From Planctomycetota bacterium (lineage in GTDB: Bacteria > Planctomycetota > Phycisphaerae > WQYP01), in contig JAJYDU010000003.1 of assembly GCA_021790475.1 (NCBI GenBank), positions 1 through 42,851 of the forward strand: a DNA stretch of 42,851 bases, written 5' to 3'. A model generated the notes under the pieces. The model had not been told where the DNA came from. It saw nothing but the letters and a program-made list of their open reading frames with translations, and did no database searches. Shown one piece after another: positions 5,691 to 24,658 of the stretch. Position numbers and translations under genes: made by a program. Position 1 is the first letter of the stretch, and every line of letters begins with the position of its first letter.

Positions 5691-8218
5691 ATCAGCAACA
5701 CCAGCCCGCCAGCCGCCAGCAGCACCAGCGTGGTTGGTTCGGGCGTGGGGACGGCCGTGACCTGTAAGCCCAGTGTGTCCGCAGTTGGCGTAAAGTCAAA
5801 TGAGTAACCATCGACGTTCAGTGGGCCGGAATTGGTGTTGGTGAACGAGCCGCTGATGCCGCTGGCCATCAGAAAAGTAAACTTATCGCCCACGTTGGCG
5901 GTAAAGCCGCTCTCCAGATTAAGCACAAGCTCACCACCCAGCGTCGCCGAACCGTTGGCGCTTATGGTGTCATACTGGCCGGTCCCCGTTCCCGTCAGGC
6001 CGATGTCCAGGATGCTCGAGGAAGTGAGAATCATGTTGCCGGGCACGTACATCGAGCTGGGATCCAGTACGACCGTGCCGCTGTTGGTGAAATCGCCGGA
6101 GAAGTTGAACGTGGCGCCATTCTCCAATTTGAAGGTACCGCTGTTGCTGGTCAAACCGGAAATTGCGTTAAACGACGTGCCGCTGCCTTTAAGGATAATC
6201 GTGGCGGCATTGGTGGTGATGTTCCCTCCCCCAAGATTCATGGAAGCGTTGGCGTCAACAATCCAGGTGCCGCCGGTGAGCGTGCCATTGGAAACGTTGG
6301 TGACGGTCCCGCCGTCCGCGGTGATGGTATTTCCAGCAGCGGCCTGCACGGTGCCAACATCGGCGTTGGTGAACGTGCCGCTGTTGAAATGCAGGGTACC
6401 ATTGGTGGCGGCGACGGTACCGTTGTTGGTGAGGGTAGAGCTTTGCAGATAGAAATCGCCCCCCGAATCGGTATTGATCACGCCGTTATTGACCATGGGC
6501 GCGGTGATCGAACCGCCCGCACCGCCGGCGATGGTCTGCCCGGCATCCACGGTAACCACAGCGTTGTTGGCCGCGCTGATCGTGCCACTGCCATAATAGT
6601 AGCTGAAGGCCACTTTCCCGCTGCCGGATAAGTCTCCGGAGCTTGCGAAAACAAGCGGCTGGCCGCCATGGGCGAGGAGGATGGTGCCGTTGTTGGTGAT
6701 GGTTCCGTTGGCCGCCAGGGCGCCGCCGTTGGTGGCGAGGGTGCTGCCGGCCGAAATCGTCACGCCATTAAGCGTTGTTGTGTAGCTGTCAACTTGAAGC
6801 TCGCCGCTGCCGCTGCTGGAAAGAGTTCCTCCGTTCACCGTGGTATTGTAGTAGAAGTTCACGATGCCGCCGGCCGCGGAGATCGTACCACCGGTGTTGT
6901 TGACAGTTAGAACCGAGCTTGATGAAAAGTTGGCGTCGTAGCCGAAAGCCAGGTTTCCGCTGGGATTCGTTGCCTCCAGAGTGCCGGTGTTGGTAATAGT
7001 CGTAGTCAGGTCAGAGGGCGTGGTGGTGAAGTTCAGAGTGTTATTTGTATCAGCGTTCATGGTGCCGCTATTTGTGATATTACCGCTGATCTGCCCGAGG
7101 CCGTGAATAGTGGCGTTGTTGGTCAGGCTGGAAGTGCTGTCAGTACTCAGAGTGCTGCCCGCGCTGGCCATGTGAAGGCCGCCGCTGCCGGCAAGCGTGA
7201 CATTCCGGCCGCCGCTGATGGAAATCCCGCCACCATTCTCAATATCCCCGTTGACGGTAATGGTCCCTTGCAGCGCCAGTGTGCTGGAATTGTTCAGGAT
7301 CGAGCTTGGCGTAATGCTCACACCATTCAGGGTGACGGTGCCGCTGGTATTGATGTAATCGCTGTAGGTGCTCTGATTGCCATCCGAACTCAGCGTTCCG
7401 CCGGTGACCGTTACGCCGTTTTCGATATTGATCTGGCTGCCGGTGCTGCCAGCGCTGCCGGTAGCGTTAATTATGCCGCCGGTGTTGTTGAATGTCATGG
7501 CGTTGCCGTCGCCGATTTGCAGTGAATCGCCGCCGGTGGCCTCCATGGTTCCTTTATTGGTATACGCGGTGGTGGTCGTGGTGATGCTGTTGTCGTAGTT
7601 GTAGGCGTTGGTCAACAATACCATGGGGTTGCCGCCATAGCTGGCGTCGATAGTTCCTTTATTAATTAGATCCGCGCTGATGTAGCCGGCGCCGTTGATT
7701 ATCTGGTTGGCGCCCACGGTCAGGGTGGGGGTGGTAGCGTCGGACAGGAGTACCGAGGCGGAGTTTTGCAGGGTCAGAGTTCCGGTGCCCGTGATGCTCG
7801 TGCCACTGCTTGAGAAAATCAGGTCGGAGTAAGCGCCTCCGCCGCCTTCCACGGCTACCGTGCTGTCATTTTCCAGTGTGCCTCCAATGACGAAGAACAC
7901 GTTGTAGCTCCTTATCCCTCCGGAATTGTCGGCATAGACCTGTAGCTTGGCGCCGCTCTGCACGGTGACGTTATTGATATTGACGTACCCACCACTATTC
8001 TCATCGCAGGCAGTGCCTGTCTCAATGATGGCGTCGTCAGTGGCGGCGGGGACTGAGCCGCTGCTCCAGCCCGCGGAATCGGACCACTTTGCGACGCCGT
8101 TCGGACCCACCGGCAGGAGCCACGTGTCCGTCGCGGCCTGTGCGGAGGATGTGGCCCAGGCGGTGGCCAGCGCCAACAGGGCGCACTTACCGATTAAAAC
8201 GCAACGATTCACTTTCAT
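5663..8218 (-). CDS. Large beta-strand-repeat (autotransporter/adhesin-like) exported protein with C-terminal PEP-CTERM sorting signal
   Basis: N-terminal signal peptide MKVNRCVLIGKCALLALATAWATSSAQA; many TNxGTLxATNGxxxFxxGTxT-type repeats; C-terminus VPTPEPTTLVLLAAGGLVLLMRRRKKVES. Confidence 0.9.
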   Translation of the reverse strand: MKVNRCVLIGKCALLALATAWATSSAQAATDTWLLPVGPNGVAKWSDSAGWSSGSVPAATDDAIIETGTACDENSGGYVNINNVTVQSGAKLQVYADNSGGIRSYNVFFVIGGTLENDSTVAVEGGGGAYSDLIFSSSGTSITGTGTLTLQNSASVLLSDATTPTLTVGANQIINGAGYISADLINKGTIDASYGGNPMVLLTNAYNYDNSITTTTTAYTNKGTMEATGGDSLQIGDGNAMTFNNTGGIINATGSAGSTGSQINIENGVTVTGGTLSSDGNQSTYSDYINTSGTVTLNGVSITPSSILNNSSTLALQGTITVNGDIENGGGISISGGRNVTLAGSGGLHMASAGSTLSTDSTSSLTNNATIHGLGQISGNITNSGTMNADTNNTLNFTTTPSDLTTTITNTGTLEATNPSGNLAFGYDANFSSSSVLTVNNTGGTISAAGGIVNFYYNTTVNGGTLSSSGSGELQVDSYTTTLNGVTISAGSTLATNGGALAANGTITNNGTILLAHGGQPLVFASSGDLSGSGKVAFSYYYGSGTISAANNAVVTVDAGQTIAGGAGGSITAPMVNNGVINTDSGGDFYLQSSTLTNNGTVAATNGTLHFNSGTFTNADVGTVQAAAGNTITADGGTVTNVSNGTLTGGTWIVDANASMNLGGGNITTNAATIILKGSGTSFNAISGLTSNSGTFKLENGATFNFSGDFTNSGTVVLDPSSMYVPGNMILTSSSILDIGLTGTGTGQYDTISANGSATLGGELVLNLESGFTANVGDKFTFLMASGISGSFTNTNSGPLNVDGYSFDFTPTADTLGLQVTAVPTPEPTTLVLLAAGGLVLLMRRRKKVES

Positions 8219-21479: not shown

Positions 21480-22703
21480 CTACTTCGCTGTGACGTGATT
21501 GCGGCGATTCTGTGCTTCGTTCATTTCGCCGGCGGTGGGGCTTGTGCCGGTGTGCATCATCCGCACGAAGCAATCAAATAAGTAGGTGGCGTCGTGCGGT
21601 CCCGGGCTGGCTTCCGGATGATATTGCACCGCGAAAACCGGCTCGTCCCGCAGACGAAATCCTTCCAGGGTGTGGTCGTTGAGATTGATATGGGTCGGTT
21701 CGCCGCCCTGCTTGCGCAACGACTCAACATCGACGGCAAAACCGTGGTTCTGCGAGGTGATTTCGACTTTACCGGTGGAGATGTTCCGCACCGGCTGGTT
21801 ACCGCCGCGATGGCCGAATTTTAGCTTGAATGTCGACGCGCCCAGCGCCAGGCCGAGCAGTTGATGGCCCAGGCAAATGCCGAAGATGGGCTTTTGTCCA
21901 ATGAGTTCCTTGAGGGTCCGCTGCGTGTGGATGATCGGTTCGGGATCGCCCGGTCCATTGCTGACAAATACGCCGTCGGGCTTGTAATCGAGAATCTCCC
22001 GGGCCGTGGCGGCGGCGGGTACTACGCGCACGCGACAACCGCTTTGCACCAGGTTCCGCAGGATGTTGCGTTTGGCGCCGCAGTCGATGGCGACTACGTG
22101 CGGCGCCTTTTTCTCCGAAACGTCGGATCCATCCGCCTGTTGCGCCCAGCAACCCTTGTCCTGGTCCCACTGGTACGGCTGGGCGGGCGTAACCAGCTTG
22201 ACCAGGTCCAGACCGACCAGGCCTCTCCAGGTCCGGGCGCGGCGGACCAGTTCGGCGTCGTCATGGACAAGCTTCTGGTCCGTGCAGATGACGCCTTTGA
22301 GCGCTCCCTGCGTACGGAGCTTGCGCACCAGAGCGCGGGTGTCAATGCCCGCCAGCCCTGGAATATGATGGCGCCGCAGGTATTCGTGGAGCGATTCGAC
22401 GGCGCGGAAATTGCTCGCAATCGGCGAAAGTTCCTTGATAATGAAACCCTCCACCTGCGGGTGTGCGGATTCCTCATCGACCGAATCGGCGATGCCGTAG
22501 TTGCCGATCTGCGGGTAGGTCATCGTGACGATCTGGCCGCGATAGGACGGATCGGTAAGGATTTCCTGGTAACCGCAAAGCGACGTGTTGAACACCACTT
22601 CGCCGACACTCAGTTCGCCGGCGCCGAAAGCGAAGCCGGTGAACAGAGTTCCATCTTCCAGCGCCAACTTGGCCGGCGTCATTGGTTCCTGCGGCATGGG
22701 CAT
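21480..22703 (-). CDS. carA: Carbamoyl-phosphate synthase small subunit
   Basis: MTPAKLALEDGTLFTGFAFGAGELSVGEVVFNTSLCGYQEILTDPSYRGQIVTMTYPQIGNYG; glutamine amidotransferase motif IFGICLGHQLLGLALG. Confidence 0.97.
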   Translation of the reverse strand: MPMPQEPMTPAKLALEDGTLFTGFAFGAGELSVGEVVFNTSLCGYQEILTDPSYRGQIVTMTYPQIGNYGIADSVDEESAHPQVEGFIIKELSPIASNFRAVESLHEYLRRHHIPGLAGIDTRALVRKLRTQGALKGVICTDQKLVHDDAELVRRARTWRGLVGLDLVKLVTPAQPYQWDQDKGCWAQQADGSDVSEKKAPHVVAIDCGAKRNILRNLVQSGCRVRVVPAAATAREILDYKPDGVFVSNGPGDPEPIIHTQRTLKELIGQKPIFGICLGHQLLGLALGASTFKLKFGHRGGNQPVRNISTGKVEITSQNHGFAVDVESLRKQGGEPTHINLNDHTLEGFRLRDEPVFAVQYHPEASPGPHDATYLFDCFVRMMHTGTSPTAGEMNEAQNRRNHVTAK

Positions 22704-22857
22704 TCCCGGAAAACAAGCTGATGTTCACAATAACCGGTGTGATTATAGCCGCCGCACGGCACAAGACAATGAACCATGCGGGAGAAAATGTCCATCCAGG
22801 CGTAACTTGCCGCGTGCAACCTGAATAATACCGTCGGACGTCGAAACCAGATGGATG

Positions 22858-22993
22858 GGGTGTGGCCGTTTTTATTTGGCAACAAGGCAAAAACCGGCTT
22901 AATTAATACAGTGTTCACCTCTATGAAGAGAAGTCCTTTTTTTGGCTAACGAGGCGGCTGGGGCCAGCTTTGCCAATAAATATGGCCACACCC
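22858..22993. mobile_element. MITE-like non-autonomous element with TIRs and 8-bp flanking duplication
   Basis: Left end GGGTGTGGCCGTTTTTATTTGGCAA (22858-22882); right end reverse complement GGGTGTGGCCATATTTATTGGCAA (22970-22993); perfect 8-bp direct repeat GATGGATG abutting both ends (22850-22857 and 22994-23001). Confidence 0.75.
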
Positions 22994-23203
22994 GATGGAT
23001 GCCGATCACCTGAAAACTGCTTCCACCACCGGTCCCGGCAGGTAGACTTTGACACGAAAGCACAACAGGCGGGGGAGTTCGCATATTTACGCGGATTTAG
23101 ATAGGTTATTGTGAAAGTCGAAAGGCGTTACGCTCGCCGTGTGCTTTCGCCCGCGGCGCGGTCGCGTGGTAGCTCATGGTGTTTGCCGATAGAATGGCCG
23201 GAC

Positions 23204-24658
23204 ATGAAGACCATCGGTTTCCAGAAGTGCATCAATCCCGCCTGCGGCGCCACCTTCGATGTCAGCCAGACGCTTACCGCGTGCCGGCAATGCGGAGAAC
23301 TGCTGGATATCCGCTACGATTGGGACCGGGCGCGGTTACCTGCGTCGTTGCGGATGTTCCAGGAGCGCTGGCAAAATCGGCGGTTTCCACTGGATTATTC
23401 AGGCGTGTGGCGGTTTCGCGAGTTGCTGCCCTTCGCCGTCGACGCCATGGTCTGCACAATCGGCGAAGGGCAGACGTTTTTACAGAACGCTCTCTGCCTG
23501 GGACGCCAGATCGGCGTATGGCCGGGACAATTATGGCTCCAATACGAGGGAATGAATCCTTCGGGCAGTTTCAAGGACAACGGCATGACCGCGGCGTTCA
23601 CGCACGCGCGGCTGGTCGGCGCGCGGCGGGTGTCCTGTGCCAGCACGGGAAATACATCGGCTTCGCTGGCGCTTTACGCGGCCATGAACGGCTTCCAGGG
23701 AATTGTGTTTATCGGATCGGGAAAAATAGCCTTCGGCAAGCTTTCCCAGGCGCTGGACTACGGCGCCCGTACGCTGCAGATCGAAGGCGATTTCGATACC
23801 TGCCTGGCGCGGGTGCGGCAGGTGAGCGGGCAAATCGGGTTATACCTGATGAACAGCGTCAACCCGTTTCGGCTCGAGGGCCAGAAGACGATCATGTACC
23901 GCGTTCTGGAATCGCTTAATTGGGAGCCGCCGGATTGGATTATTGTTCCGGGAGGAAATCTGGGAAATTGTTCCGCGTTCGGCAAAGCGTTCGCCGAGTT
24001 GTTGGAACTGGGATTGATCAAGCGAATTCCGCGTTTAGCGGTGATTAACGCGCAGGGGGCCGACACGCTCTATCAGCTTGTACGTCAGGGTGTGGCCTGG
24101 AACGACGGAAAGGTGGACGACGCGGCGATCCAGGCGTTTTATGCGCGGCAGGATAAGGAAAACATTCATCCGCATACGGTGGCTTCGGCGATTGAAATCG
24201 GAAGACCGGTAAACTTAAAAAAAGCCCTGCGTACGCTGGCCTGGACCCATGGCGTGGTCATCGCGGTTTCCGATCAGGAAATACTCGAAGCCAAGGCGCT
24301 GATCGGCCGGCACGGTTTCGGCTGCGAACCTGCCAGCGCGGCGACGGTGGCGGGATTGCGGCATCTGCTGGAAAAGCAGGTCATTTCGCGGCACGAGCGG
24401 GTGGCGTGTATATTGACCGGCCACGGGTTAAAGGATCCGGATGCGACGGTGTATTACCACACGGGTATCCAAACCAAGCAGGCCAAAACTCCTCCGCCGG
24501 AACCAACCTGGGGGCGGAAAGCCAACCAGCCGGTAAAGGTATCGGATGACTTGCCGGAGATCGTGGCGGCGCTGGGACTCGAAGGCGATACGCTGGAAAA
24601 GAGCCGCCAGACCGGTTACGTGGAAACCAACCTTGATCTGCCGTTTGTGGAGTATTGA
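23204..24658 (+). CDS. thrC: Threonine synthase
   Basis: Zn-ribbon-like CINPACGATFDVSQTLTACRQCGELLDIRYD; PLP site QYEGMNPSGSFKDNGMTAAFTHA; ASTGNTSASLALYAA; VPGGNLGNCSAFGKAFAELLELGLI. Confidence 0.93.
   Translation: MKTIGFQKCINPACGATFDVSQTLTACRQCGELLDIRYDWDRARLPASLRMFQERWQNRRFPLDYSGVWRFRELLPFAVDAMVCTIGEGQTFLQNALCLGRQIGVWPGQLWLQYEGMNPSGSFKDNGMTAAFTHARLVGARRVSCASTGNTSASLALYAAMNGFQGIVFIGSGKIAFGKLSQALDYGARTLQIEGDFDTCLARVRQVSGQIGLYLMNSVNPFRLEGQKTIMYRVLESLNWEPPDWIIVPGGNLGNCSAFGKAFAELLELGLIKRIPRLAVINAQGADTLYQLVRQGVAWNDGKVDDAAIQAFYARQDKENIHPHTVASAIEIGRPVNLKKALRTLAWTHGVVIAVSDQEILEAKALIGRHGFGCEPASAATVAGLRHLLEKQVISRHERVACILTGHGLKDPDATVYYHTGIQTKQAKTPPPEPTWGRKANQPVKVSDDLPEIVAALGLEGDTLEKSRQTGYVETNLDLPFVEY

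Follow-up and report, generated by a model that had tools for sequence, protein, structure and literature searches.

The window, i.e. the whole stretch of 42,851 nucleotides that was analysed, belongs to a 2.68-Mb Planctomycetota assembly (hereafter G000; its contigs are denoted by C-numbers, and the copy of the element in the window by C18). It contains the divergently oriented genes carA and thrC, both confirmed by protein family models, and the region between them carries a short mobile-looking element. A sequence-only reading had described an element of 136 bp without an open reading frame, with ~24-bp imperfect terminal inverted repeats (TIRs) and a perfect 8-bp target-site duplication abutting both ends, and had proposed that it is a miniature inverted-repeat transposable element (MITE). 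Direct reading of the sequence and shuffling bear out the structural part of this description. The locus is composed of the following features.

21480–22703, minus strand: carA, carbamoyl-phosphate synthase small subunit (TIGR01368)
22742–22769, minus strand: putative carA promoter and best match for this gene, TTGTCT-16-TATAAT, at a distance of 88 bp from the MITE
22850–22857, plus strand: target-site duplication, left copy, 8 bp, GATGGATG (direct reading)
22858–22993, no strand assigned: MITE copy, 136 bp (direct reading, genome search, duplication and consensus analysis)
22858–22886, plus strand: TIR end B, family consensus GGGTGTGGCCGTTTTTTTTGGCAACAAG, 25/28 identical to the right end of an ISKra4-type IS in the genome G015
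22964–22993, minus strand: TIR end A, family consensus GGGTGTGGCCATATTTTTTGGCAAAGCTGG, 29/30 identical to the left end of the same type of IS in G015
22994–23001, plus strand: target-site duplication, right copy, 8 bp, GATGGATG (direct reading)
23020–23048, plus strand: putative thrC promoter, CTTCCA-17-TAGACT, 7/12 consensus matches, weak, with its −35 box starting 26 bp away from the MITE
23204–24658, plus strand: thrC, threonine synthase (TIGR00260)

The inverted ends of the window copy align with two mismatches and one gap across ~25 columns, an alignment that was matched by none of 2000 shuffles of the element. Compared with the 131-bp consensus of its family, the window copy diverges by 4.6% and has five extra bases, TTAATTAATACA replacing TTAACAC. 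Its fold energy exceeds that of all 200 shuffles, which is expected from the inverted ends. The element has no match in an Rfam search, and neither a terminator-like site nor a promoter-like match was found within it; the earlier suggestion that it may supply promoter signals is thus not borne out for the window copy.

The sequence-only reading had allowed for the case that no other copy of the element exists. A genome-wide search with the window element found about 20 further copies in G000 with 77–95% identity. Eighteen short copies align to the 131-bp consensus with 0.8–12% divergence. Most copies are located near gene starts, and most are abutted by 8- or 9-bp duplications, the sequence of which is different at each copy. 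Duplications abutting the ends were found for 13 copies: 8/8 for C18 (the window), C20, C159, C50a, C51 and C21b; 9/9 for C64, C170 and C207a; and 7/8 for C153, C50b, C129 and C21a. The three longer versions, at C27 (223 bp), C32 (250 bp) and C17 (336 bp), match the short form on one side and contain additional internal DNA; the short form would therefore seem to have arisen by internal deletion. No exact match to the MITE core was found among genome contigs of named organisms.

Several other MITE-like elements of 121 to ~180 bp with ISKra4-type ends, some of them with duplications, are present in G000 (C25:23194–23314, C198:45177–45353, C133 near 3606 on the minus strand, C13:7586 and C173:16381). 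In the genome G010, the end pattern is matched at least 44 times, in part by repeated elements of ~160 bp. In the region G000:C207:5559–8576, the MITE copy at 7059 has a further ISKra4-like end (TCCGAAAAATTGTCACACCC) no more than 130 bp away, which suggests stacked insertions at one promoter region.

The compared relatives are metagenome-assembled genomes (MAGs) of Planctomycetota. Following the proposal to look for empty sites, we matched the joined flanks of MITE copies against G001, a genome of the same genus. At five MITE sites (C170, C64, C207a, C159 and C153) G001 is continuous across the junction and lacks the element, and the site of the sibling element C25 is likewise empty. Single-locus searches found no empty site for C50a (G000:C50:17404–17534, L007; perfect duplication), which lies at a breakpoint of a ~25-kb inversion relative to G001:C79, or for C21b, which is surrounded by diverged DNA. 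The whole element has no copy in G001 or in the other class members searched, where only end matches occur in a few family members. Taken with the empty sites, the lack of a whole copy in G001 indicates that the MITE amplification took place after the split from the G001 species.

The empty site of the window copy itself is unreadable because G001, with about 94% identity in the vicinity of carA and thrC, carries a different block of ~7.6–7.7 kb between these genes (G001:C49:16604–24369), compared with 353 bp (22797–23149) in the window. By eye, the block encodes an AraC-type regulator, an oxidoreductase, a TIM-barrel protein and others. The 353-bp window segment has no counterpart within the stretch compared, G001:C49:12000–28000, and no orthologous carA/thrC region carrying the segment without duplications was found.

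The search for an insertion sequence (IS) sharing the MITE ends identified an ISKra4-type IS. In G015, a genome of the same family, the left IS end GGGTGTGGCCATATTTTTTGGCAAAGCCGG lies just before the transposase start (MDKDVLKKRL...), and the right IS end GGGTGTGGCCATATTTTTTGGCATCAAGCGGCCC directly follows the transposase C-terminus; these are the ends matched by MITE ends A and B at 29/30 and 25/28 positions. IS relatives with these near-identical ends are multi-copy in other genera, and a relic at C97 of G000 combines the same end with an ISKra4 transposase fragment. The transposase fragments found beside this end type at C97, in G009 and in G015 are all matched by the ISKra4 transposase model. 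The IS-end search returned 20 stretches, all from Planctomycetota MAGs.

A full-length IS with sister ends (1589 bp, at C93) matches the model NF033572 (transpos_ISKra4) with E=4.5e-37 and 128 bits, below the curated cut-off of 205; matches to this model were found in 20 of the 28 family genomes, none of them above the cut-off. The two best plasmid relatives are annotated as ISKra4 family transposases. Perfect duplications of 8 bp flank full-length relatives with sister ends at L099, L101 and L114, three sites in all. Inverted ends of 18–39 bp with terminal G/C and a duplication of 8 or 9 bp, as in ISKra4-type elements, were found here. A sequence-based search for a solved structure of the transposase gave no result. 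The parent is probably an ISKra4-type IS (Mutator-like, p-MULT 4), an assignment made with a model score below the curated cut-off. Neither G000 nor any relative yielded an assembled parent IS that is intact and has these ends, as contigs stop about 126 bp into the IS, and for this reason mobilisation in trans is something that we infer. The identification of the window element as a MITE holds, given its multiple copies, their differing duplications, the empty sites elsewhere and the ends common to a transposase-coding IS.

The ISKra4-type transposase is split into orfA and orfB, and each of the six relatives that were compared has the second frame in the +1 register: C93 (L050), L099, L101, L114, L115 and L107. 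The change of frame occurs around a common TTTTTCCCCC motif, and this conserved motif is a candidate site of programmed +1 frameshifting or slippage.

To locate the copies relative to promoters, the flanking DNA was scanned in the outward direction for TTGACA, a spacer of 16–18 nt and TATAAT with a threshold of 8/12, so that the promoters are predicted ones defined by consensus matching. Distances run from the TIR to the position at which the −35 box begins. Sigma70-type promoters facing outward concentrate with the −35 box 25–28 bp, mostly 26–27 bp, from the inverted repeat. In G000 (49 flanks), 15 flanks reach 8/12 at 25–28 bp, compared with 1.7 at other positions scored in the same way (P≤5e-5), and the peak was equalled by none of 20,000 position shuffles. 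The 25–28 bp interval was fixed on this genome and then applied to two independent flank sets from several genera. IS ends of other genomes (24 flanks) gave 7 promoters versus 0.78 expected (P 1e-4), and further related ends (110 flanks) gave 31 versus 3.65 expected (P≤5e-5), with 26 and 27 as the top positions. Within the latter set, which also includes other genomes, the enrichment is seen in each of G002, G009, G010, G016, G017 and G021.

When near-duplicates were removed (192 flanks), column composition alone revealed a TTG-like bias at positions 26–28 and a TATAAT-like bias at positions 49–55; promoters directed into the element form no peak in these non-redundant flanks. The promoter may face either end of the element. 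A promoter at 25–28 bp on at least one side was found for 12 of the 22 elements in G000, against a control rate of 7%, and the remaining 10 have no promoter of at least 8/12 at this distance. The promoter hexamers are still present in the G001 sites of C20, C32, C108 and C170, so these four promoters are independent of the insertion. The relation of element and promoter looks reversed, with the transposition machinery apparently picking sites just upstream of pre-existing promoters. Insertion at a fixed position ~26 bases upstream of promoters would explain the location of the elements in control regions without gene breakage.

The window copy shows a weak match to this arrangement on one side. 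Its thrC-side promoter starts 26 bp from the element end and has P of about 0.03 per window of the scan with a trained matrix; on the carA side, there is no promoter at the distance preferred by the family. The thrC promoter would be the likely, if weakly supported, target of the window insertion, and thrC transcription would then be expected to begin near 23055. Overall, we consider it highly probable (about 0.88) that the element is a MITE with ISKra4-type ends, that the family is inserted 25–28 bp upstream of outward promoters, and that the window copy is one such insertion.

Selection might produce a part of this pattern. A MITE inserting at random and surviving only in intergenic promoter regions would also have most of its copies near gene starts, as selection against insertion into genes is expected. 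However, a peak that is only 2–4 bp wide, is positioned at 26–27 bp in several genomes and involves outward promoters only is unexpected from selection alone, which makes untargeted insertion improbable. Uncertainty of another kind concerns the current mobiliser. Among the intact ISKra4-type transposase frames of the G000 assembly, the longest, of 372 aa, is that of the C93 IS (GGGTGTGCCCGTTTTTGTCGGGAA ends); the first ~16 bp of this IS are similar to the MITE ends, and it could act across end types. Its end identity is about 20/24 by eye, in contrast to 29/30 for the ATATTTTTTGGCA-type IS, and the C97 relic shows that the closer end type was once present, so a role of C93 as the current mobiliser is unlikely, though less so than random insertion.

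Elements of the IS66 and IS1595 types also give 8-bp duplications, and GGG ends would be compatible with the parent of one of these types proposed by the sequence-only reading, which would need to have the ends GGGTGTGGCCATATTTTTTGGCA. This parentage received no support: the MITE ends are of the ISKra4 type and adjoin ISKra4-type transposase genes, and the domain DDE_Tnp_IS1595 (PF12762) is absent from the genome, which excludes an IS1595 parent. An origin from either type is very improbable. The least probable explanation is that the segment is conserved regulatory or structural DNA of carA and thrC, such as a bidirectional terminator or an RNA element, and is not mobile. Its position between two divergent genes and a fold better than all shuffles would agree with this, but the dispersed copies with different duplications, the empty sites, the absence of any copy in the same-genus genome and the lack of Rfam or terminator matches do not, and the alternative raised in the sequence-only reading, conservation of the segment at orthologous loci, fails.

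For the preferred explanation, a promoter-directed MITE with ISKra4-type ends, we propose the following mechanism. The IS transposase would bind the ends common to the MITE and the IS, move the MITE in trans and join it to the target with the strands staggered by 8 bp. The target could be recognised through RNA polymerase or through the shape of promoter DNA. Counted from the transcription start, the joint would lie near −62, just past the polymerase contact zone, so that the core promoter would stay intact and the insertion would be nearly harmless. There is perhaps an even chance of a more general scenario, in which a planctomycete ISKra4-like lineage and its MITEs are guided by RNA polymerase at 26–27 bp, about one helical turn beyond the known Mutator-like register, with the MITEs systematically taking the place of host promoter DNA upstream of approximately −62.

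Bacterial MITEs are usually described as intergenic passengers. In the present case, copies of a single MITE family and of related ISs in several genera indicate the position of a promoter with a precision of a few bases, and such insertions could therefore serve as promoter landmarks in uncultured Planctomycetota. The range of promoter-directed integration known from Mutator-like transposases would be widened to include MITEs, another distance and another transposase arrangement, and the suggestion that transposase and RNA polymerase are in contact becomes testable.

The MITE described here resembles other bacterial MITEs, e.g. MITEAba12 (PMC6382973), in being short, free of ORFs and multi-copy, with IS-type TIRs and a target duplication; in the literature searched, we found no description of a fixed promoter-relative position for any bacterial MITE. 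An independent survey showed that ISKra4 and ISLre2 copies favour distances of 50–250 bp from genes (PMC9208149). The p-MULT 4 clade comprises the ISKra4, ISMich2 and ISAzba1 groups. Insertion upstream of sigmaA promoters, accompanied by duplications of 8 or 9 bp, is reported for p-MULT 3 elements and for part of the ISKra4 group, of which 13 promoter-targeting ISs are named, at a published distance of 13–17 bp and with no mention of a MITE (Guerillot et al. 2014, PMC3942029). Similarity to the ISKra4 family includes a homologous transposase (NF033572, with a score below the curated cut-off), inverted ends of 18–39 bp of the form GGG...CCC, duplications of 8 or 9 bp, occurrence in Planctomycetes and the insertion of some members upstream of sigmaA promoters, which may face either end if the two ends are nearly identical. 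In contrast to this family, the element here is a non-autonomous one of 131 bp. The −35 box is 26–27 bp from its end rather than the 13–17 bp published for the ISKra4 group, and a part of this difference could be a matter of convention, since the reference point of the published HMM may differ from the first −35 base; plasmid ISKra4 elements, considered for calibrating the published distance, yielded only four remote matches. The ISMich2 group has two transposase ORFs joined by a −1 frameshift (PMC3942029), whereas the second transposase frame of the relatives studied here is in the +1 register. TnGBS integrative and conjugative elements and ISLre2 (p-MULT 3, PMC3942029) likewise keep a constant spacing to the sigmaA promoters upstream of which they insert; they have a transposase of another lineage and other hosts, their distance is 15–17 bp, and they are oriented with the right end by the promoter, whereas in the planctomycete elements either end may face it.
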